A stretch of 13,713 bases of DNA from JBFMHD01 sp040752395 [NCBI: Candidatus Hydrogenedentota bacterium]. GTDB lineage: Bacteria; JBFMHD01. The number at the start of each line of letters is the position of its first letter. The first letter of the stretch is position 1. The DNA is taken from NCBI GenBank assembly GCA_040752395.1, contig JBFMHD010000061.1:1-13713 (forward strand). The letters run 5' to 3'. Of the stretch, positions 391 to 12,153 are shown one piece after another. The notes beneath the pieces are model-generated. The model did no database searches. It had not been told where the DNA came from and worked only from the letters and a program-made list of their open reading frames with translations. The position numbers and the translations under genes were made by a program.

Positions 391-2460
391 CTAGTGAATT
401 ACAGATATTTCAATCTCTCTGTCTCTTTGTCTGGTTTTTATAGATTCTATAAATTTAACAGAATCTATTTTAACAGTAGAATACAAACTAACAATTTTTT
501 TATTTAATAAAAAGACATTGTTTATGCTTTCAATTGTGAAATTATCTTTATATTCTAAACTCACCTCGTTTTTCACTATCCCGGCATAGAGCGACTGAAA
601 TAAAATAAGAATATTTTTATACAATGGAGGTAAGCTGATTTCAAGTGGTAGAGGATCATCCCATGCTATTTTATTCTCACATAAAGGTAATGACGGGACC
701 GTAAGAAAAATATATTGAAGTATAGTATCTTTAGAACCGATATATTTATAAAATCTGAAGATATTTTTATAGATGATAAAATAGAGTCTGGAATCTCTGT
801 TTTTAAGATATGTCGTTCCATCAGTATCCATTACAACTTCAATCCTTTCTTTGGTCTCCTTGTTATTTATCCTAAAATTATATTCGAAAGTATCTCCTAA
901 TAAAAGCTCAAATACTTTCTTCTTTTTTATTGAACTATAAATTGAAGATAATAACTGACCTTTTTGTGGAGAAATCGTTGGATAGAATCTCCTGTTTAAT
1001 AAAACCTGTTCAAAATTAAACTCTATAGTAGGTGAAGAATTAGCTACACCTGTCTGGAGCTGGATATGAATATGCGGTGCGGGCGAATAACCCGAATTAC
1101 CACAATATCCTATAAGTTGACCTGTCTCTACATACGAACCAACCAATGGTATAATAGAGCCTTTTTTTAAATGACATATCTTCACGTAAAACTCACGACT
1201 ATCATAAATTATAATGTAATTACCCCAGTTATCTTCTCTGTTAACAGAACCTATATCATTATCCGGGATATCATTGACTACAGCAGAAACACTACCTGAT
1301 ACTGGTGAAAATACAGGTTTAGCATAAGCATAATAACTCTCTAATCTAGCCGGGTTCCCTTCATATTGTTCGTTTTTATCATTAACAAGAACAAAATCTA
1401 CGCCGTATTTCCACGGCCCCTTATGCGTGATCTCATCATCAAACCCCTGAGAAAGCTTCCATTCACCTGAAAATGGGAGAGATATTAATGGATAGGAAAA
1501 CCCGAATCGGGTAGTATAATTTATATAAAAATCGAGGTTAGTCTCTGGATTCTTTAGATACGTATATATCCGTAGTTTCCAGTTTATAATATCAGAATAA
1601 TAAATGAAACATAAAACAGTAATATTGAATGGCAGAGTAAAGACAGGGATACCATAAGTCCCTACAAAGACTTCTGTTGCACCAAGTATAACATAAGAAA
1701 CAGCTACAGCAAAAATAGCTATAATATAGGATTTAAAAGACGGGATTAGATAAATGCTACCAATGGCAATAGCTATCAATATGTAATTAAAATAATTCAG
1801 ATTTAAATATGTTGAATCAAGGGTTGAGTTAAATTCACCTGTAATAATCGCACCTGCGTAATACCCGATAATTGAGAGCAGAAAAACTATACGTGAATGT
1901 AATAAGAGTGCGAAAGCTACAAGTAACCCAACGATAATGTTTTTTGAGAAAAATATCGAGCCAAGCGATAAAAAATAACCATTAAGCCATATTGGTAAAT
2001 TAGATATAGTAACAGATGGCTGAGGTATAAGATAATTCGAGAATAGATTTGAGCTTCTTATTGTAGCAAGATACACAAAAGAACTGACAATAACAAAAGG
2101 GAGGCTTAATACAGGTAACCCTGTATATTTTTTTAATAAAAAATTTAATACTACGCTAAGAACAAAAGCAAGTATGGCTGATGCAAAAATAAGTAAGCCG
2201 GTTAATATAGATATTTTAAATAAAACACCTATGGATAAACCAACAAGTAAAGGATTATAATAATAAAAAGGTTCGAATCTTAATTCAGGTGAGAACGTTA
2301 ATTTATTAAAAAGATATGCTGAAAAAATAGCAGCCAGGCCACAAAGCCCTGTGTTAAAATCAAGCAAAGTAGCAATAAATACAATGATACCGAGTAATAA
2401 ATTATCAGTAAAAAATATTTCAGAATATATAATGAGTAATCTTTTTACTTTTTCCCACAT
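391..2460 (-). CDS. Urea transporter (UT family) fused to M23/LytM metallopeptidase domain
   Basis: A 689-residue membrane protein. Residues 1-300 are strongly hydrophobic, with about ten membrane segments. They carry the two-fold UT signature: LPVLSLPF (115-122) and IPVFTLPF (271-278), with NPLLVGL (69-75) in the first half. UT proteins are channels for urea and similar small amides. Residues about 320-485 form an M23 (lysostaphin/LytM) peptidase domain with candidate zinc ligands H346, D355 and H465 and catalytic histidines H430 (CHL) and H463 (HIH). All expected residues are present, so activity is plausible. The last 200 residues match nothing I recognise. The gene is last in a four-gene operon, 55 bp after the decarboxylase, with AAGGA before the ATG. 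Positive residues at both ends of the channel part suggest a cytosolic C-terminus, odd for a peptidoglycan enzyme. The family assignment is firm; the substrate is not known. Confidence 0.9.
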   Translation of the reverse strand: MWEKVKRLLIIYSEIFFTDNLLLGIIVFIATLLDFNTGLCGLAAIFSAYLFNKLTFSPELRFEPFYYYNPLLVGLSIGVLFKISILTGLLIFASAILAFVLSVVLNFLLKKYTGLPVLSLPFVIVSSFVYLATIRSSNLFSNYLIPQPSVTISNLPIWLNGYFLSLGSIFFSKNIIVGLLVAFALLLHSRIVFLLSIIGYYAGAIITGEFNSTLDSTYLNLNYFNYILIAIAIGSIYLIPSFKSYIIAIFAVAVSYVILGATEVFVGTYGIPVFTLPFNITVLCFIYYSDIINWKLRIYTYLKNPETNLDFYINYTTRFGFSYPLISLPFSGEWKLSQGFDDEITHKGPWKYGVDFVLVNDKNEQYEGNPARLESYYAYAKPVFSPVSGSVSAVVNDIPDNDIGSVNREDNWGNYIIIYDSREFYVKICHLKKGSIIPLVGSYVETGQLIGYCGNSGYSPAPHIHIQLQTGVANSSPTIEFNFEQVLLNRRFYPTISPQKGQLLSSIYSSIKKKKVFELLLGDTFEYNFRINNKETKERIEVVMDTDGTTYLKNRDSRLYFIIYKNIFRFYKYIGSKDTILQYIFLTVPSLPLCENKIAWDDPLPLEISLPPLYKNILILFQSLYAGIVKNEVSLEYKDNFTIESINNVFLLNKKIVSLYSTVKIDSVKFIESIKTRQRDREIEISVIH

Positions 2461-2515
2461 TTAATATCCTTAAATTATGGTTCTTCGGCATCAGGTAGCA
2501 TAGCGGTCACCAACT

Positions 2516-3862
2516 TTATATCTTCTTTAATCGTTCAGGTATCCTCTCTTTTCTTATAACATCTTCTAAAGTCTCCTTTTCGCGAATAACTTCTATTTGC
2601 TTGTTCTCTGAAATAAGCACAATATTTGGTCTATATTCAATAAACTGCATCCACTGAGTGATGCAATAAGCGCCCACAGGATTCATTACAAGTGGTGTTC
2701 CCGCGGACAAAGGTGGGAGTTTGACAGCCTCTCTGATTACATCAATGTTCATACATAATGGTCCATAAAGCGTAACGTCTTCAGCAGGTCCCTCAATATC
2801 AATACCAACTTTTATAGGTATATCGTACCAGGTTGATGTATATAAAAGATTTATTCCTGCATCAAGAATATATGTTTTTCTACCATCAAAAAGACGTTTC
2901 GAACCAGTAACTGTTGTTAATAAATAGCCGGCTTCGTCAACTATAGCTCTACCACTTTCTAAATAAACGATGGGAAATTTATCTGGCGCCAGTCTTGATA
3001 AAAGCACTTCACCGATAGCTTTTGCAAAATCCTCGATTGGTGGGATAGAAAAATCAGGTGATAGATAAATACCCTTCAGTTTATTCTTTGATGGGAAGCC
3101 ACCACCTAAATCTATGTATTCAATATTGATATTCAGTTCTTTTTCAAGGATGGAAGAGAAATACAACAACTTTTCGGTCTCAACCTGATAAGCCTGTGGC
3201 GATAAAATAAAAGTGCCGATGTGACAATGCAACCCGGCCAAATTAAGTTTACCGCTCTTTGTTAATCTTTTCGCTGCGGAGAATGCTTGACCACTCTCAT
3301 AATTAAACCCGAACCGGGACCACAGCGGGTAGATGCCTGAATCAAGGTTCAGTCTGATGCCTACATCGATCTTTTTATTAAGTTTTAAAGCTATCTCCTC
3401 AAGTCTATATATCTCATCAAAATTATCTATATTGATTATAGCATTATCTTTAACAGCCTTTTCTAAGATACCCTCTCTTTTGTAAGGTCCATTAAAAATT
3501 ATTTTATTGCCAGGTACACCGAGATATCTTGCTTTCTCATATTCAAACTCAGATACAACCTCAGCAAGACAATCTTCAGAATGAAGGATAGAACATATCG
3601 CCCCAAGATAATTAGTCTTATACGACCAGGCAAAGACTATTTTGGGATAGTAGGTTTTAAAAATTCGTTGATAATTTCTTATTGTTTCTCTTAATTTTTT
3701 TTCAGAAAATACAAAGACAGGTGAACCATACTTGCTGATAATATCTTTAACAGGCACCCCATCAATCTCAGAAGTCGTTCTTTCATAATAGGCTGACTGG
3801 AATTTATTAACAAACCCTATGCTCTGCTCTGTGAACATAGGTTTCTCATAGATCCTTTTCAT
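2516..3862 (-). CDS. PLP-dependent fold-III amino-acid decarboxylase, LysA-like
   Basis: A 448-residue member of the ornithine/diaminopimelate/arginine decarboxylase group 2 family (alanine-racemase-type barrel plus beta domain). Visible motifs: PLP lysine K82 in FAWSYKTNY, HCHIGT (212-217), phosphate-binding GGGFP (253-257), ESGRA (302-306), GPLCMNID (367-374, catalytic Cys370 contributed across a dimer) and GAYCITQWMQF (397-407). True diaminopimelate decarboxylases usually have Glu right after that Cys; here it is Met371, so lysine biosynthesis is doubtful. From memory the QWMQF..YRP ending resembles decarboxylases of antibiotic and siderophore clusters (BtrK or PvsE type), some of which act on carrier-bound substrates. 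The ATG overlaps the ATP-grasp stop (ATGA) and has AAGGAG 7 nt upstream, so the genes are probably translationally coupled. Enzyme class is sure; substrate unknown. Confidence 0.88.
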   Translation of the reverse strand: MKRIYEKPMFTEQSIGFVNKFQSAYYERTTSEIDGVPVKDIISKYGSPVFVFSEKKLRETIRNYQRIFKTYYPKIVFAWSYKTNYLGAICSILHSEDCLAEVVSEFEYEKARYLGVPGNKIIFNGPYKREGILEKAVKDNAIINIDNFDEIYRLEEIALKLNKKIDVGIRLNLDSGIYPLWSRFGFNYESGQAFSAAKRLTKSGKLNLAGLHCHIGTFILSPQAYQVETEKLLYFSSILEKELNINIEYIDLGGGFPSKNKLKGIYLSPDFSIPPIEDFAKAIGEVLLSRLAPDKFPIVYLESGRAIVDEAGYLLTTVTGSKRLFDGRKTYILDAGINLLYTSTWYDIPIKVGIDIEGPAEDVTLYGPLCMNIDVIREAVKLPPLSAGTPLVMNPVGAYCITQWMQFIEYRPNIVLISENKQIEVIREKETLEDVIRKERIPERLKKI

Positions 3863-4899
3863 AAGCTTTCTCCTTTTATAGTAATATTTTCAAAATCTGT
3901 TATATTTTTTATAATTTCGCCTGTATAACGGATTAATAACCTACCAGGTTTATATCCCATTCTAAATTTTTTTTTACCCTCAGTAAGATTTAATACATAT
4001 CTATGAGGAAGATTTATACCGACAGCTGTAGCAAGATAGACCCATGCAGGGAATCTCGGGTTTATCTCAAGAAGATATAATTCTTCTTTTGGTGTCATTC
4101 TGAACTCGAGCTCGAACCCGCCTCTGAAATGTGTCACTTCTATAAATTTTTTGCCCACCCCTATCATTCTTGGATTATCAATTGTTACTGCAGTCCAGAT
4201 TTTTCCAAGCTGAGTCAATAACAATTTCTTAGCAGCAACTAATCCTAAACACTCGCCGTCTTTGCTGCCAAGCCCCACAAGGTTATAGTCATTACCTGTA
4301 ATAAATTGCTGAACAAGAACAGGGAACCCCCATTTTTTTGAGAGCTGGTCAAAATAATTGTGAGCTTCGTAATAAGAGCTCACCCTGTATGCTTCGTAAA
4401 AACATCCTTTCACAATCGCCGGAAAACCAACATTCTCTAAAGCTCTGTTTAGCTCCTCAAACGTTGAGACCGAAAAAGTTAATGGCACTCTAATTTTAAT
4501 CCTTTCGGCAAGATGAGCCAGGTTCGCTTTATTACAACTCTCAAATTGCTCTCTTGTCGGCACAATCAATCTTATATCTCTTTTTTTAAGTAAATTGTAA
4601 TTCTTTATATAATGAGGTAATTCAGAATCAAACGCAGGTATGATTATATTAACCTTCTCTTTCCCACAAATATACATAAGTCTATCAAGATATTTTTCTA
4701 TCGAAGATGAGGGGTATGGAAGTAGATATCCTTTACTGATAAAATTATCAAGATATAAGCCAGGATCCATAGCATCATACGACAAACCTATACACCGATA
4801 CTTAGAATTAGCCTCCCTCAGACTTCGAATGATACCATAACCCGAACCAGGATTATCTACAATATTAATCCCTGAAACAGCGATGGTCAGTCTCTTCAC
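3859..4899 (-). CDS. ATP-grasp ligase, carbamoyl-phosphate-synthase-like
   Basis: A 346-residue ATP-grasp enzyme. The N-terminal 110 residues form a Rossmann-like pre-ATP-grasp domain that begins with a glycine-rich loop (IAVSGINIVDNPGSGYG). The ATP-grasp body follows: FPAIVKGC with nucleotide-binding K164, VLVQQFITGNDYN (194-206), and the metal-binding strand LLEINPRFP (276-284) with E278 and N280. Family members join a carboxylate, through an acyl phosphate, to an amine or thiol; the acceptor cannot be read from sequence. The start is GTG at 4899, overlapping the PqqD-like stop (GTGA), with GGGGA a few bases upstream. The end overlaps the decarboxylase start by 4 bp. Sitting between a PqqD-like protein and a decarboxylase, it may act on a peptide-bound or carrier-bound amino acid (inference). 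Confidence 0.88.
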   Translation of the reverse strand: MKRLTIAVSGINIVDNPGSGYGIIRSLREANSKYRCIGLSYDAMDPGLYLDNFISKGYLLPYPSSSIEKYLDRLMYICGKEKVNIIIPAFDSELPHYIKNYNLLKKRDIRLIVPTREQFESCNKANLAHLAERIKIRVPLTFSVSTFEELNRALENVGFPAIVKGCFYEAYRVSSYYEAHNYFDQLSKKWGFPVLVQQFITGNDYNLVGLGSKDGECLGLVAAKKLLLTQLGKIWTAVTIDNPRMIGVGKKFIEVTHFRGGFELEFRMTPKEELYLLEINPRFPAWVYLATAVGINLPHRYVLNLTEGKKKFRMGYKPGRLLIRYTGEIIKNITDFENITIKGESL

Positions 4900-5138
4900 T
4901 CTATGATCCCCTTACTTTTTAGAAGTTCCATAAAATCTATGATGTCTCTCTCAACCTCATAAGAAGATACATCAAATAACGAGACTATATAATTTTTAAT
5001 CTCTTCAATGTTAGTAGTCTCTTTTAGTTTTTTAAGTATCTCGAGACCCGTTGAGTTGGTTGTATATGATACGCCTGTTTGCGGATCAAAGATAAACCCG
5101 TTCTCGTTCATTGCCATACGCTTTAATCTCTCATTCAT
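4896..5138 (-). CDS. PqqD-like small protein (RiPP recognition element fold)
   Basis: An 80-residue protein with the PqqD pattern: a short basic N-terminus, GFIFDPQTGVSYTTNSTG (two strands and a turn), a helix (LEILKKLKE), then a helical C-terminal half ending in a DFMELLKSKGIIE segment. PqqD-family domains bind leader peptides and present them to modifying enzymes; many standalone members have no known partner. An ATG 30 bases further upstream (5168) is possible, but I chose 5138: it has a near-ideal GGAGGAG five bases upstream, and the upstream extension (MVRRFIGGER) is itself the translated Shine-Dalgarno region. It is the first gene of the operon and its stop overlaps the ATP-grasp start. 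No obvious precursor peptide gene lies beside it. Family call good; function inferred. Confidence 0.8.
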   Translation of the reverse strand: MNERLKRMAMNENGFIFDPQTGVSYTTNSTGLEILKKLKETTNIEEIKNYIVSLFDVSSYEVERDIIDFMELLKSKGIIE

Positions 5139-5220
5139 TCTCTCTCCTCCAATAAACCGCCGCACCAATTAGACTATATTATTTTGCTGATACTAATTTG
5201 CGCAGTGATAAATTTAATTT

Positions 5221-5249
5221 ATTATAGCATAAAATTTAAAATTTTTCAA
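5221..5249 (-). promoter_or_regulatory. Sigma-70-type promoter of the PqqD/ATP-grasp/decarboxylase operon
   Basis: On the minus strand: TTGAAA (-35, 5249-5244), a 17-bp spacer, then TATAAT (-10, 5226-5221) preceded by TGC, an extended -10. The ATG at 5138 lies about 75 bases downstream of the expected start site. This is the clearest promoter match in the window. A TTGACA lies on the opposite strand at 5257-5262, but I find no good -10 for it. Confidence 0.65.
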
Positions 5250-5308
5250 TTTAATCTTGACAATTTTTTTTATTATGTAAACTTAATTTGTTATGGAGAT
5301 GATATGTT

Positions 5309-5366
5309 GGCTTTAGGCTCCGGGCTTTAGGCTCCAGCCGGCTGTAGTCAGTAGCCTGTAGCCCGT
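5309..5366. repeat. Heptad-periodic dispersed repeat, inverted copy of the left-end block
   Basis: Consecutive 7-mers in register: GGCTTTA, GGCTCCG, GGCTTTA, GGCTCCA, GCCGGCT, GTAGTCA, GTAGCCT, GTAGCCC. The reverse complement of 5332-5366 matches window bases 1-35 at 32 of 35 positions, and the match continues more weakly to base 54 (AAAGCCCGGAGCCT against AAAGCCCAGAGCCT). It lies in the spacer between the PqqD-like gene and the divergent TPR gene. Seen directly. Confidence 0.8.
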
Positions 5367-5386
5367 CCTGATACTTCTCACTTCTT

Positions 5387-5463
5387 CCGTTATCTTGCTT
5401 CTTGCTTCTTGCTTCTTTCGTTATCTTTCTTTTTCGTTATCTTGCTTCTTGCTTCTTGCTTCT
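5387..5463. repeat. CTTGCTT heptamer array in two blocks
   Basis: Two blocks of exactly three CTTGCTT units (5394-5414 and 5441-5461), each preceded by CGTTAT and separated by a degenerate CTTTCGTTATCTTTCTTTTT stretch. The two 30-base units (5387-5416 and 5434-5463) are nearly identical. The right block runs directly into the leader of the TPR gene at 5509. Changes in copy number would alter the spacing of anything bound upstream of that gene. Confidence 0.85.
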
Positions 5464-5501
5464 ACTTGATATTATTAGAGTTAGAATGTTTTTCAGAGGA
5501 G
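5455..5501 (+). promoter_or_regulatory. Recurrent leader element, copy 2 (first TPR gene)
   Basis: Consists of CTTGCTTCTACTTGATATTA, then TTAGAGTTAGAATG, then TTTTTCAGAGGAG. It agrees at 43 of 47 positions with the M29-peptidase leader on the opposite strand (13288-13242) and closely with the orphan copy at 250-208. It includes the Shine-Dalgarno sequence and ends 7 nt before the ATG at 5509. GATATTATTAG could hold a -10 (TATTAT), but the -35 is not clear. Confidence 0.7.
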
Positions 5502-5508
5502 GGTAAAT

Positions 5509-6150
5509 ATGAGAAACTTAATTAACTTATTTAGTATTTTAATTATCACTTTATTCTTTGCTGTACCTGGTTTAAGTGCAAATGACCTCGCCAATGCACT
5601 TGATGAATCTTATAAAGCTGAGACCGAAAAAGACTATGAAAAAGCATATAGCATAATAGAAGATATTATGGAGGAAGTAACTGACGAATTTGGTTTGTAC
5701 ACGATACAGATGAGACTCGGTTATCTTAATAACCTTCTAAAAAAATATAAAGAAGCAGCTGAAAATTATAATGCAGCTGCTTTGTTACGGCCCAAGGCGA
5801 TTGAACCCATGCTTTATTTACAATATCAATATCTGATTCTACAGGATTGGTCAAAACTGATTGATGTTTGTATTAAAGCATTAAAATTAGATCCTAATAA
5901 CTATACCTCAAAAACCCGGCTTGCGTATTCGTTTTATATGACGGGTAACTATGAGCAGTCTGCAAGCGAGTATTTGGAAGTATTAAGTTTATATCCATTA
6001 GACATAGATGTTATGAATATGATTGGCTGGTCGTATGTGTTTCTCGGGATGAAAGACGAGGCAAAAAAGATATTTAAAACAGTAACAACCATATCTCCAG
6101 GCAATACATCTGCTAATGAGGGTCTTGATTATTTAAAAAATCTGAAATAA
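5509..6150 (+). CDS. Secreted tetratricopeptide-repeat protein
   Basis: A 213-residue protein with a typical Sec signal peptide: MRNLIN, a hydrophobic core to about residue 20, then probable cleavage after GLSA (24/25). The mature part is built of TPR-like helix pairs. The clearest are around 81-114 (KEAAENYNAAALLRP), 115-148 (KALKLDPNNYTSKTRLAYSFYMTGNYEQS) and 149-199 (EYLEVLSLYPLDI, then WSYVFLGMKDEAKKIF). TPR proteins are assembly and binding scaffolds; the partner is unknown. AGAGGAGGG lies just upstream of the ATG. The gene faces, tail to tail across 32 bp, a paralogue of the same length and layout. Presumably extracytoplasmic; no lipobox cysteine is seen. Confidence 0.85.
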   Translation: MRNLINLFSILIITLFFAVPGLSANDLANALDESYKAETEKDYEKAYSIIEDIMEEVTDEFGLYTIQMRLGYLNNLLKKYKEAAENYNAAALLRPKAIEPMLYLQYQYLILQDWSKLIDVCIKALKLDPNNYTSKTRLAYSFYMTGNYEQSASEYLEVLSLYPLDIDVMNMIGWSYVFLGMKDEAKKIFKTVTTISPGNTSANEGLDYLKNLK

Positions 6151-6182
6151 TCATAATTATAGGCCAGACGAATCCAGCCCTG

Positions 6183-6809
6183 CTATTGTTTGTTATTGTA
6201 GAATTGTTTTGCTGTAATGTTCTCAGGATCAAGTATAAGTACATTATCAAAAATTGAATATGCTTCTTCTTCCTTGCCTTGATAAAATAATACTATTCCT
6301 AATTCAGTAAGAAATGTAACGTTTGTCGGATACACATATAACATCTTTCTTGCTATAGCTTCTGCTTCTTCATATTTTTTCTGGTTTTTATAAGAAGTGA
6401 TTAAATAAAGATTAGCGTAATAATTATAATAATCAATCTTTAAAGTCTGATTACATTTTTCTTCAGCTTTAAGCCATTCCTCTTTAGCAAGATATACTAA
6501 AGCAATGCCGTTCTTTGCTTCAAGCGAATATGGGGCAGCTAACTCTGCCTGTTTATAATATTCTTCAGCATCTTTATATTTTTTCATTAGATAAGTCAGC
6601 CAGCCAAACCGTAAATTTATTGTATAGGTTTGTGAATATTTTTCATGGACAGGGACTAATACACGGAATGCATCAATATAATTAGTTGTTGCTTCATATT
6701 TATAAGACTCTTTATATAAAGAAGCGATATCAAGTTCTTTTTGCTCTGCATATATTCTTTCGCCAATAAAAAAGCCTGATAATAAGAACAATAACAATAT
6801 TTTCTTCAT
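6183..6809 (-). CDS. Secreted tetratricopeptide-repeat protein, paralogue of the facing gene
   Basis: A 208-residue protein with a short signal peptide (MKKILLLFLLSGFF..., likely cut after IYA, 21/22) and at least four TPR-like units. It aligns end to end with the convergent TPR gene: SYKYEATTNYIDAF with SYKAETEKDYEKAY, YTINLRFGWLTYLMKKYKDA with YTIQMRLGYLNNLLKKYKEA, and TLKIDYYNYYANLYLITSY with ALKLDPNNYTSKTRLAYSF. Similarity is diffuse at the protein level, so the duplication is old. GGGAG lies 7 nt before the ATG. nadE ends 48 bp upstream on the same strand, so the two may share a transcript. Its molecular role is unknown. Confidence 0.85.
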   Translation of the reverse strand: MKKILLLFLLSGFFIGERIYAEQKELDIASLYKESYKYEATTNYIDAFRVLVPVHEKYSQTYTINLRFGWLTYLMKKYKDAEEYYKQAELAAPYSLEAKNGIALVYLAKEEWLKAEEKCNQTLKIDYYNYYANLYLITSYKNQKKYEEAEAIARKMLYVYPTNVTFLTELGIVLFYQGKEEEAYSIFDNVLILDPENITAKQFYNNKQ

Positions 6810-10265: not shown

Positions 10266-10301
10266 TTTTTCATGCTTTGTGTAGCGGTGCAACGCACCCT
10301 A
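10266..10301. repeat. Dispersed hairpin element (copy in the glnA leader)
   Basis: TTTTTCATGCTTTGTGTAG (10266-10284) matches 136-154 at 18 of 19 positions. It is followed by a stem TAG(C)GGTGC, loop AAC, GCACCCTA (10282-10301): 8 bp with one bulged C. It sits immediately upstream of the glnA Shine-Dalgarno region, so it would be transcribed in the glnA 5' leader and could affect translation or RNA stability. Confidence 0.6.
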
Positions 10302-10339
10302 TGTTGACTACGCTAAAAGAATTAGAAATAAGAATAGTG

Positions 10340-10364
10340 TATGACCGAATAATCATTTGTCATA
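10340..10364. promoter_or_regulatory. Inverted repeat upstream of glnA, possible operator
   Basis: TATGAC (10340-10345) and GTCATA (10359-10364) form a perfect 6-bp inverted repeat about 90-110 bp upstream of the glnA start. The size would suit a dimeric repressor or activator. No sigma-54 GG/GC promoter was seen nearby. Weak evidence. Confidence 0.3.
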
Positions 10365-10416
10365 ATATAAAAAATATAAATAAAAATATTAAATTTTGCA
10401 AACTAAAAATTTAATA

Positions 10417-12153
10417 TTATTTTAACGATCGCTTTTTTATTAATGATATTTCTATTTTCCGAATAAAAATAACAACAACTCCCAGGGCCAGGAAGAGTAA
10501 GATAATATCTGCAGATATGAGGATATAATTTGAATCCAGATAGTATTTTTTTAATAGAATAATAAGAGCTGTTATGGTTGTTGCAAACATAAATATCGCA
10601 GGTAGTAAAGCAAATATAAATTTTCTTCCGGTTGTTAATAGAAAAACAGTTATAGTAATCAGTGTAAGTGCAGCAAGTAATTGGTTTCCTGTGCCGAAAA
10701 TAGGCCAGAGTGCATTAAACGCATTTTTATACGCAAGGAGAAACATTATAACTACAGCAAGTAATGAATTAAACCACATCTTCTGTAAAAATTTAACACC
10801 CGGGAATAGATATCGCCATAACTCCTCAAATATATACCGGGTAATTCTTATCGCAGCATCAAGCGTTGTTATAACAAAACCTTCAACAAGCAATATCCCC
10901 AATACACAACCAAGCGCAATATTTATCCCTAATGCATTGTTAAACAAAAAACCAGATGATAAAGCGAAAGCAAGTATAGGGTTCTGCCTGGCTTTCTCAC
11001 TTGCCCAAACAATGTTTATGTACTCAGTCTGATTCAGTGATGAACAGATTGTTAATACAACACATAAAGCAAGTATAGATTCAAGTAGCATCCCATTATA
11101 TCCTATTTTTTTTGCATCAGATTCTGTACTTATTTGTTTAGAAGGTGTACCGGATGCTACAATGGCATGAAAACCTGAGATTGCGCCGCAGGCAACTGTA
11201 ATAAAGAGCATTGGCCAGAGATAACCAAGCGAGATTATACCCTGATTTGAAAATGCAGGGAACCCAAGCGAAATACCTTTTATCCCACCAATAAAAAGAG
11301 AGACAAGAAGTAAAATTATGCCGCCATAAAGTATCTGCACATTAATAAAATCACGTGGCTGCAGTATCAACCATACAGGCAGAGTCGAAGCAAACCATAC
11401 ATATATACTTAAAATAACCATCCATAAGTTCAGGTCTATAGAGACGGGAATTTTAAACCCCAAAACTATACTTATGATAGCTATTAAGAACGCAATAATA
11501 TAAGCGATTAATTTTGATATACCTTTTTTGTATAAGAGATAGCCTAAAAGAGGCGACATAAGAGTTATAATTATAACAGAGGTTGAGGCTATACCACCAA
11601 TAACACCTAATTTAATATTATCTTTTTCTACAATATTAAGCAGTGTCTGCTCCGCTGTAAGCCCGAGTCTATCAAGTGGATACATCGAGGTAAGAGATAC
11701 AGAAGCGGCTCTTAAAAAAGCAGATGTAACAAGAAATAACATTAAAAGTGTAAAGCTTATAAAAAGAAAGAAACCGGTATTACCGAGATATTTTTTTGCT
11801 ATCTCGGCTATAGACCTACCATCTTCTCTTATTGATAAAAACAATGTTGAGAAATCATGAACAGCACCTATGAATATTCCACCAAGTATTATCCATAGAA
11901 CTGAGGGTAGATAACCATAAATAGCTGCGAGAGTGGGACCAAGTATAGGGCCAGCACCTGCGATCATTGAAAAATGGTGGGCAAAAAGAATATATGTTTT
12001 AGTAGGACAGTAATCCTTACCATCATTTAATCTTACAGAAGGCGTTGGTTTTTGGGGGTCTATTCCAAGGGAATTTTCAATCTTTACAGCATAGAACCTT
12101 GATGCAAGATAAAATATAACTATTGATGGAATCAAAACTAAGAGTACATTCAT
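10417..12153 (-). CDS. cstA: CstA-family carbon-starvation transporter
   Basis: A polytopic membrane protein of 578 residues with many hydrophobic segments. The CstA hallmark AHHFSMIAGAGPILGP lies at 58-73, followed by the conserved GGIFIGAVHDFSTLFLSIREDGRSI (91-115). FSMIAGAGP, GAISGFHAIVASGTP and GTGNQLLAALTL match family blocks I recognise. Known members import pyruvate (BtsT) or peptides (CstA) and are induced by carbon starvation. The length fits the shorter class of the family. The ATG overlaps the M29-peptidase stop (ATGA), with a weak AAGGA about 11 nt upstream, so coupling to the peptidase gene is likely. A peptidase and transporter pair fits use of peptides or amino acids (inference). 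No terminator is evident before glnA. Confidence 0.93.
   Translation of the reverse strand: MNVLLVLIPSIVIFYLASRFYAVKIENSLGIDPQKPTPSVRLNDGKDYCPTKTYILFAHHFSMIAGAGPILGPTLAAIYGYLPSVLWIILGGIFIGAVHDFSTLFLSIREDGRSIAEIAKKYLGNTGFFLFISFTLLMLFLVTSAFLRAASVSLTSMYPLDRLGLTAEQTLLNIVEKDNIKLGVIGGIASTSVIIITLMSPLLGYLLYKKGISKLIAYIIAFLIAIISIVLGFKIPVSIDLNLWMVILSIYVWFASTLPVWLILQPRDFINVQILYGGIILLLVSLFIGGIKGISLGFPAFSNQGIISLGYLWPMLFITVACGAISGFHAIVASGTPSKQISTESDAKKIGYNGMLLESILALCVVLTICSSLNQTEYINIVWASEKARQNPILAFALSSGFLFNNALGINIALGCVLGILLVEGFVITTLDAAIRITRYIFEELWRYLFPGVKFLQKMWFNSLLAVVIMFLLAYKNAFNALWPIFGTGNQLLAALTLITITVFLLTTGRKFIFALLPAIFMFATTITALIILLKKYYLDSNYILISADIILLFLALGVVVIFIRKIEISLIKKRSLK

Follow-up and report, generated by a model that had tools for sequence, protein, structure and literature searches.

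Discrete RiPP recognition elements (RREs; RiPP, ribosomally synthesised and post-translationally modified peptide) of lasso pathways recognise a [Y/W]xxPx[L/V/I/F/A] motif. In LppB, as described in the same source, D70 binds the Tyr, N33 fixes the Pro kink and F74 lies at the Pro, its counterpart dividing the pockets, with M78 and L83 named as well (PMC13381572). YxxP is the lasso motif, and related motifs serve several RRE groups (PMC12710340). Among fold-III decarboxylases, which use pyridoxal phosphate (PLP), BtrK acts on carrier-bound glutamate. In FigC, the position next to the catalytic Cys is taken by Met355, where related enzymes have an Asp that holds the side-chain amine, and H357, R387 and N389 are predicted by docking to meet citrate (PMC7857480). 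Here we analyse a 13,713-nucleotide stretch of DNA from a Candidatus Hydrogenedentota bacterium (contig JBFMHD010000061.1; called the window below), in which an initial annotation had marked four minus-strand genes as a candidate biosynthetic operon. They encode a PqqD-like protein, an ATP-grasp ligase, a fold-III decarboxylase and a fusion of a urea-transporter (UT) channel domain with an M23 peptidase domain (UT-M23).

The gene set appears to produce a small molecule and export it, and the decarboxylase seems to carry an address tag typical of antibiotic-precursor peptides. The reading that we favour, with a probability of roughly 0.5, is that of a conserved biosynthesis-and-export module in which the PqqD-like protein would be an RRE that docks the leader-tagged decarboxylase onto the ligase, so as to make a capped amine. 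A more pointed version, which we hold only tentatively, is that an enzyme has acquired a leader peptide: a lasso-type RRE would not present a precursor for modification any more but dock the tagged decarboxylase on the ligase, in a small-molecule pathway of some 20 phyla that has a channel, a hydrolase, a barrel-like and a TPR protein of its own and of which a phage has borrowed a part.

A gene module conserved across phyla

The run of four genes was found as annotated, and Pfam backs each of them (Table 1). The overlapping stop and start codons reported for three of the genes are four-nucleotide overlaps, one between the PqqD-like and ATP-grasp genes (4896-4899) and one between the ATP-grasp and decarboxylase genes (3859-3862). 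A gap of 55 nucleotides separates the decarboxylase from the UT-M23 start.

Used as the sole query for scanning genomes, the ATP-grasp of the window yielded nothing useful. With three ATP-grasps as queries we obtained the 80 loci discussed below, the best 80 of 563 relatives among the matches listed. By record title they cover 21 phyla, a count that is affected by at least one title that looks wrong, that of L049. This locus is titled as a Klebsiella pneumoniae metagenome-assembled genome (MAG), its decarboxylase tail is near-identical to those of the Verrucomicrobia-type loci L031 and L039, and the bin is probably mislabelled. The closest relative among the matches listed is an Elusimicrobia MAG (L010), with 60% identity in the ATP-grasp and 68% in the decarboxylase.

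Since the loci were picked on the ATP-grasp alone, the presence of the other genes is an independent observation. A PqqD-like gene lies at most 350 nucleotides upstream of the ATP-grasp in 78 of the 80 loci and a decarboxylase at most 700 nucleotides downstream in 77, with median gaps of 0 and 1 nucleotides, respectively. UT-M23 comes next, within 800 nucleotides, in 65 of 71 assessable loci. Two further genes recur, namely a barrel-like gene within 1500 nucleotides (44/56 assessable loci) and a tetratricopeptide repeat (TPR) gene within 3000 nucleotides (47/55). Some exceptions stand at contig edges, L032 beginning at a contig end and L081 stopping at one. UT-M23 lies upstream in L013 and L055 and is inverted in L021. 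In other cases the missing gene is found elsewhere in the genome, as for the decarboxylase and UT-M23 of L018 and the UT-M23 of L047, L067 and L079. In L038, a PqqD-like gene and a truncated ATP-grasp (188-920) adjoin the full module.

Co-occurrence was also counted in 641 genomes, sampled from the phyla of Persephonella (101 genomes), Pantanalinema (244) and Petrimonas (296), which by the titles of the centre loci are Aquificota, Cyanobacteriota and Bacteroidota. Each sample is centred on one genome per phylum that was picked for having the module. In the larger samples only part of the first-pass candidates was scored (e.g. 3/9), so that absences there are less sure than presences. The ATP-grasp profile matches 33, 3 and 27 genomes in the three samples, and the UT-M23 profile 35, 3 and 28. 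UT-M23 is present in all 63 genomes with the ATP-grasp and in 3 of the 578 others, namely G059 (broken), G110 and G621, the last a Bacteroidota genome whose protein (G621:C40:77691-78260) matches the M23 part only. In G033 the two genes are about 195 kb apart on the same contig, which indicates that the link between them is more than shared position. In one genome, a further and incomplete ATP-grasp match (G048:C65:21139-21585) is found close to the complete copy.

The four genes are part of a conserved module. The supposition that similar neighbourhoods exist in other genomes is thus borne out by the neighbourhood count, and the homologues do co-occur across phyla, both in the 80 loci and in the 641 genomes. 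The extent given in the initial annotation was right in that the four genes are real and form one module, but the module is larger, with TPR homologues next to the operon in the window as well. The initial annotation gave no named pathway for it. None of the four operon proteins attains the cut-off of any NCBIfam model, and no description of the module was recognised in the open-access literature, as judged by titles and abstract beginnings; an earlier mention is possible, for example in the 2009 amidoligase review by Iyer and others.

The leader-like tail and the enzymes

We now turn to the decarboxylase tail, which has the consensus Y-E-K-P-V-I-x-K-L-x-x-G-x-M-N-K-F-G and mostly reads YEKPxI. 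Residues were compared in alignments of 80 PqqD-like, 81 ATP-grasp, 73 decarboxylase and 63 UT-M23 rows, with L001-L005, L054 and truncated frames omitted. Anchored on the enzyme domain, the YxxP tail is present in 72 of the 73 cassette decarboxylases, the sole exception being that of a phage, and the strict form [YW]xxPx[LVIFA] in 70. The strict motif occurs in none of 20 other fold-III rows (first 55 residues); of 575 background frames with a length of 250 residues or more, 8 have it. Within the first 50 residues, the motif was found in 0/81 ATP-grasps, 0/80 PqqD-like proteins and 3/63 UT-M23 proteins, and it occurs in 1 of 112 barrel-like and TPR frames. The decarboxylase of the L018 genome (L125), encoded on a different contig from the ATP-grasp, carries the tail as well. 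The YxxP tail on cassette decarboxylases is new here.

The PqqD-like protein belongs to the PqqD/RRE family, scoring 44 bits with PF05402 against a curated cut-off of 23.4, with 30.6 bits for the phage copy. Among NCBIfam models, those for lasso PqqD proteins rank first for the window and L015 copies, with scores that stay below the cut-off. Among solved chains of lasso type, the leader-binding proteins TbiB1 (E 0.0009) and TfuB1 (E 0.025) are nearest to the PqqD-like protein, and two designed repeat proteins score as well. In the numbering of the 90-residue frame that begins at 5168, N38, D75, F79, L83 and L88 are spaced as N33, D70, F74, M78 and L83 of LppB, and they are conserved in 86%, 99%, 94%, 94% and 86% of the 80 rows, respectively. 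The Asp and Phe of YxxP-type RREs are thus present as D75 and F79, which have the spacing of the LppB pair and align with TbiB1. The phage copy keeps both and has Ser at N38.

The initial annotation had the PqqD-like protein present a peptide. A separate precursor did not emerge, since the small same-strand frames within 600 bp upstream of pqqD in 76 loci form only clusters of two to four close relatives, and the likely partner is instead the leader-like tail of the decarboxylase. One could also envisage an ordinary RiPP pathway, in which the PqqD-like protein binds a precursor encoded elsewhere and the tail is a decoy or a relic. This is what PqqD-like and RRE families normally serve, and the lasso models among the NCBIfam matches and the motif-free phage decarboxylase would fit it. 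However, the upstream regions gave only those small clusters, the ATP-grasp has a fold like those of carbamoyl phosphate synthetase (CPS) and PylC, and the tail is kept almost throughout, so we consider such a pathway quite unlikely.

As to the enzyme itself, the active-site residues K82, H212, E302 and C370 are intact in all 73 rows. The window protein scores 222 bits with the LysA (diaminopimelate decarboxylase) model TIGR01048, below its cut-off of 297.9. The cassette decarboxylases of ten genomes score 200-229 bits with the same model in all ten, and in seven of these another protein is above the cut-off. With a profile of the cassette decarboxylases, the other fold-III enzymes of those genomes reach at most 188 bits, compared to 709-825 bits for the cassette copies, which score so by construction because they are inside the profile. 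A quick tree of fold-III enzymes, with 18 cassette loci and the window, places all 19 cassette rows, the phage included, in one group (support 100 in the SH-aLRT test). The seven LysA-labelled rows, six of them above the cut-off and one (L102) just under it at 294.1 bits, fall outside the group, where one unlabelled row joins them (support 83). Long branches occur for several rows of this tree, and only the separation is used here. By scores and tree, LysA is rejected and the cassette decarboxylase is not LysA; clustering with genuine LysA, which had been named as an outcome that would speak against the proposal, was not found.

The nearest solved structure is that of FigC/FslC, the N-citrylornithine decarboxylase of rhizoferrin synthesis (PDB 7kh2), at 210 bits, and the window protein scores 226.5 bits with the corresponding NF041039, below its cut-off of 500. 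FigC residues were mapped by alignment with a numbering offset of 19, for which K63 and C354 served as checks. Met355 is retained as M371 (99%), T327 and Y331 are retained as T342 and Y346, and T330 becomes W345. The citrate residues H357, R387 and N389 are replaced by I373, Q403 and M405, on which ground an N-citryl substrate is rejected. With the Met kept and the citrate set replaced, the substrate would be an amino acid with an uncharged cap other than citrate on its side chain. The resemblance to decarboxylases acting on capped amino acids, expected in the initial annotation, is borne out.

The ATP-grasp was modelled with AlphaFold2, the input alignments covering, beside the window, 55 of 76 ATP-grasp loci (36 of 54 loci for UT-M23). 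The model has a mean predicted local distance difference test (pLDDT) score of 95.5 and matches ATP-grasp enzymes along the whole chain, 2pn1 best (Z 32.2), followed by biotin carboxylases, glycinamide ribonucleotide (GAR) synthetases and PylC (4ffr, Z 25.9). The metal-binding residues E263, E265, E278 and N280 are invariant in 81/81 rows. A conserved GE lies a few residues before the C-terminus (window 3859-3880). A graspetide-type ligase is not supported, the fold search being headed, among the matches listed, by 2pn1, carboxylases, PurD/PurK and PylC.

The PylC-like ligase fold and the kinship to citryl-amino-acid decarboxylases would also suit a plain small-molecule pathway, for example to a siderophore- or polyamine-like amine, with the PqqD-like protein merely a chaperone or regulator and the tail in some other role. 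However, the FigC citrate residues are replaced, and even the phage has retained the PqqD-like gene, which makes this option decidedly unlikely.

Phage version, accessory proteins and proposed mechanism

A scan of viral sequences, made with an ATP-grasp alignment that included L001 (see below), found one 65.7-kb phage contig (L006) on which the PqqD-like, ATP-grasp and decarboxylase genes stand in a row with overlaps of 4 and 1 nucleotides, and further viral scans returned the same contig. Its decarboxylase is 47% identical to that of the window. PHROG matches to DNA polymerase, exonuclease, terminase large subunit, internal virion protein, virion structural protein and primase/helicase mark the contig as viral; the match to Terminase_6N of Pfam stays below the cut-off. 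No UT-M23 match was found on this contig, which may be a fragment, with a query that matched in 10/10 genomes. A motif scan for a YxxP partner over about 56 of the 65.7 kb gave many short frames and nothing convincing, and a phage collection held no match to the phage ATP-grasp and only distant decarboxylases. We read the core as the PqqD-like protein, ligase and decarboxylase of the phage version, to which cellular versions add a set that resembles export or trimming functions.

A plasmid search gave a distant case in Streptomyces zaomyceticus (L001), where the ATP-grasp is fused to a fold-III decarboxylase. The ATP-grasp half is 27.5% identical (E 2e-29) and the decarboxylase half 24%. No PqqD-like match was found at this locus, as would be expected if the PqqD-like protein tethers the two enzymes, although this is a single distant case. 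The fusion is followed by a 195-residue frame (10271-10858) that by eye resembles a transglutaminase-type cysteine protease and has no Pfam or NCBIfam match. The other plasmid neighbourhoods L002, L004 and L005 and the M23 neighbourhoods L090-L092 led nowhere. On the Antarctobacter plasmid of L003 (4920-7957), two tandem fold-III decarboxylases are followed by a 76-residue gene without a Pfam match and a methyltransferase, which is possibly another unnamed pathway.

The UT domain passes the PF03253 cut-off and can be aligned from end to end with dvUT and UT-B (Z about 34). The M23 domain matches LytM-type chains (Z 11.6-14.6). The C-terminal beta domain is barely covered in the fold search. 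The zinc and catalytic residues H346, D355, H430, H463 and H465 are invariant in 63/63 rows. UT proteins usually have both termini inside, and positive charge is found on either side of the UT domain here, which would place the M23 domain in the cytosol, next to the enzymes. This placement and the occurrence of relatives in haloarchaea, which are not known to have murein, bear on a role of M23 as murein hydrolase, which it may or may not have. The barrel-like gene, named after the look of its sequence by eye, matches nothing in Pfam and nothing noteworthy in NCBIfam, and in Bacteroidota it has an N-terminal TPR part. No barrel-like frame was seen in the 390 bases after the window UT-M23. In L025, UT-M23 and two TPR units share one frame of 1085 residues (3165-6422), with a stretch resembling a signal peptide in between, which is either a fusion or a lost stop, and in a Brasilonema (L048, 10455-11883) UT-M23 is split over two frames by sequencing error or decay.

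The intact M23 domain also bears on a butirosin-like carrier chemistry, in which the ligase would load an amino acid via its side-chain carboxylate on the tail or the PqqD-like protein, and decarboxylation and release by M23 would follow. The butirosin trio BtrI/BtrJ/BtrK, in which BtrJ is the ATP-grasp ligase, has the nearest logic. The tail has a Lys at Y+15 that is 88% conserved, and in all 63 aligned rows the channel is fused to an M23 domain whose zinc residues are intact. However, that Lys is absent in about 12% of the motif rows (e.g. L082, L042), and the C-terminus of the PqqD-like protein is variable, its only highly conserved Ser, S34 (93%), lying within the fold and being Phe in the phage. 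We regard carrier chemistry as unlikely. An acyl carrier protein was neither among the Pfam matches of the window nor recognised in the repeated flanking families, no genome-wide search having been made.

In the favoured docking reading, the ATP-grasp enzyme would join a carboxylate to an amine to give an amino acid capped at its side chain, and the decarboxylase would then take off the free alpha-carboxylate to give a capped amine. The PqqD-like protein, as a YxxP-type RRE, would bind the decarboxylase tail and so couple the decarboxylase to the ligase. The UT-M23, barrel-like and TPR proteins may serve to trim the product or to carry it through the envelope.

It is important to point out that a number of observations weigh against this reading. 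The product, the transport direction and the phage exception are its weakest points, the phage decarboxylase having no YxxP motif although the phage has a PqqD-like protein. The 72 tails are related by descent and thus not independent. The matches to TbiB1 and TfuB1 are weak, and the LppB residues are matched by spacing and not by sequence alignment; N38 corresponds to LppB N33 in this way (86%), but TbiB1 has Asp there. The precursor search reached 600 bp upstream of pqqD on one strand. The genomes of L054 and L081 have the ATP-grasp without decarboxylase or UT-M23 matches, and the L054 locus has no PqqD-like gene. Finally, the decarboxylase half of the Streptomyces fusion sits on a very long branch outside the cassette group. 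The strongest points in favour are the conservation, the co-occurrence and the match of the motif to the pocket residues.

The overall interpretation of the initial annotation can therefore be kept in part. The coupling of the genes, the lack of an NCBIfam assignment and the capped-substrate resemblance stand, while the partner of the PqqD-like protein and the size of the module had to be revised. Release of a product by M23 and its passage through the UT domain, as put forward there, are kept as suppositions. Neither of the outcomes that the initial annotation had named as speaking against it was found. If the docking reading is true, this would be a widespread, unnamed biosynthetic pathway, RRE biology would extend from peptide precursors to enzyme assembly by leader tag, and the tag could find use as a docking module. 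With the tail, its two key residues and a phage version of three genes, the docking idea is directly testable.

Window layout and comparison with known systems

The coordinates of the features are collected in Table 1.

Table 1. Operon genes, domains and neighbouring features in the window.
Feature	Position	Strand	Basis
PqqD-like / RRE protein, 80 aa	4896..5138	-	PF05402 44 bits
ATP-grasp carboxylate-amine ligase, 346 aa	3859..4899	-	PF15632 33.5 bits
Fold-III PLP decarboxylase, 448 aa	2516..3862	-	Orn_Arg_deC_N 98.7 bits
Leader-like N-terminal tail of decarboxylase (residues 1-34)	3761..3862	-	YEKP at 3839-3850
UT-M23 fusion protein	391-2460	-	UT 175 bits + Peptidase_M23 38 bits (Pfam)
UT urea-channel domain of UT-M23 (residues 12-288)	1597..2427	-	PF03253 175 bits
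M23/LytM-type zinc hydrolase domain of UT-M23 (~residues 322-490)	991..1497	-	PF01551 38 bits
C-terminal beta domain of UT-M23 (~residues 500-689)	394..963	-	beta-rich in AlphaFold2 model
TPR protein, signal peptide by eye	5509..6150	+	jackhmmer 197 bits to module TPR gene
Second TPR protein, same family, signal peptide by eye	6183..6809	-	jackhmmer 250 bits
Extended -10 promoter-like site TTGAAA-17-TGcTATAAT	5221..5249	-	best-scoring site in window, 11/12

The start of the PqqD-like gene, previously set at TTG 5168, is most likely the ATG at 5138, which follows ggaggag. The extended -10 promoter proposed for the operon is indeed the best promoter-like site of the window, but shuffled sequence has a mean of 59 such sites where the window has 49, so that the site is no evidence in itself. 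The further main genes by Pfam are those of NadE, GlnA, CstA and an M29 peptidase, beside the two TPR genes. In the regions 5330-5470 and 1-130 there are intergenic A/G-rich direct repeats (aagaagcaag units) upstream of the operon and similar gcctgtagcctgt / cagccggct strings on both sides. A known anti-phage defence system was rejected as a candidate, as PADLOC matches 0/7 proteins.

Compared to known systems, the ligase shares the ATP-grasp fold over its whole chain with PylC and CPS-like ligases (2pn1, 4ffr), although its identity to them is at most 18%. The whole UT domain aligns with the urea channels dvUT and UT-B, while here M23 and another beta domain follow it in one fusion protein. 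FigC/FslC is the closest solved decarboxylase and has the Met beside the catalytic Cys and the Thr/Tyr of the specificity helix in common with the present enzyme. The differences are the replaced citrate residues, W345 instead of T330, the YxxP N-terminal tail, and the partner, which here is an ATP-grasp enzyme and there a nonribosomal peptide synthetase-independent siderophore (NIS) synthetase. The butirosin trio BtrI-BtrJ-BtrK likewise has a carrier, an ATP-grasp ligase and a fold-III decarboxylase in sequence, whereas here there is a PqqD-like RRE and no acyl carrier protein was seen; to our knowledge, butirosin has no channel, barrel or TPR protein. In contrast to lasso systems, no lasso cyclase or B2 protease was recognised among the repeated flanking families. 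With the discrete lasso RREs themselves (TbiB1, TfuB1/FusB1), the PqqD-like protein shares a weak sequence relation, the DxxxF pocket residues and the recognition motif, which there stands on a precursor peptide and here on an enzyme.

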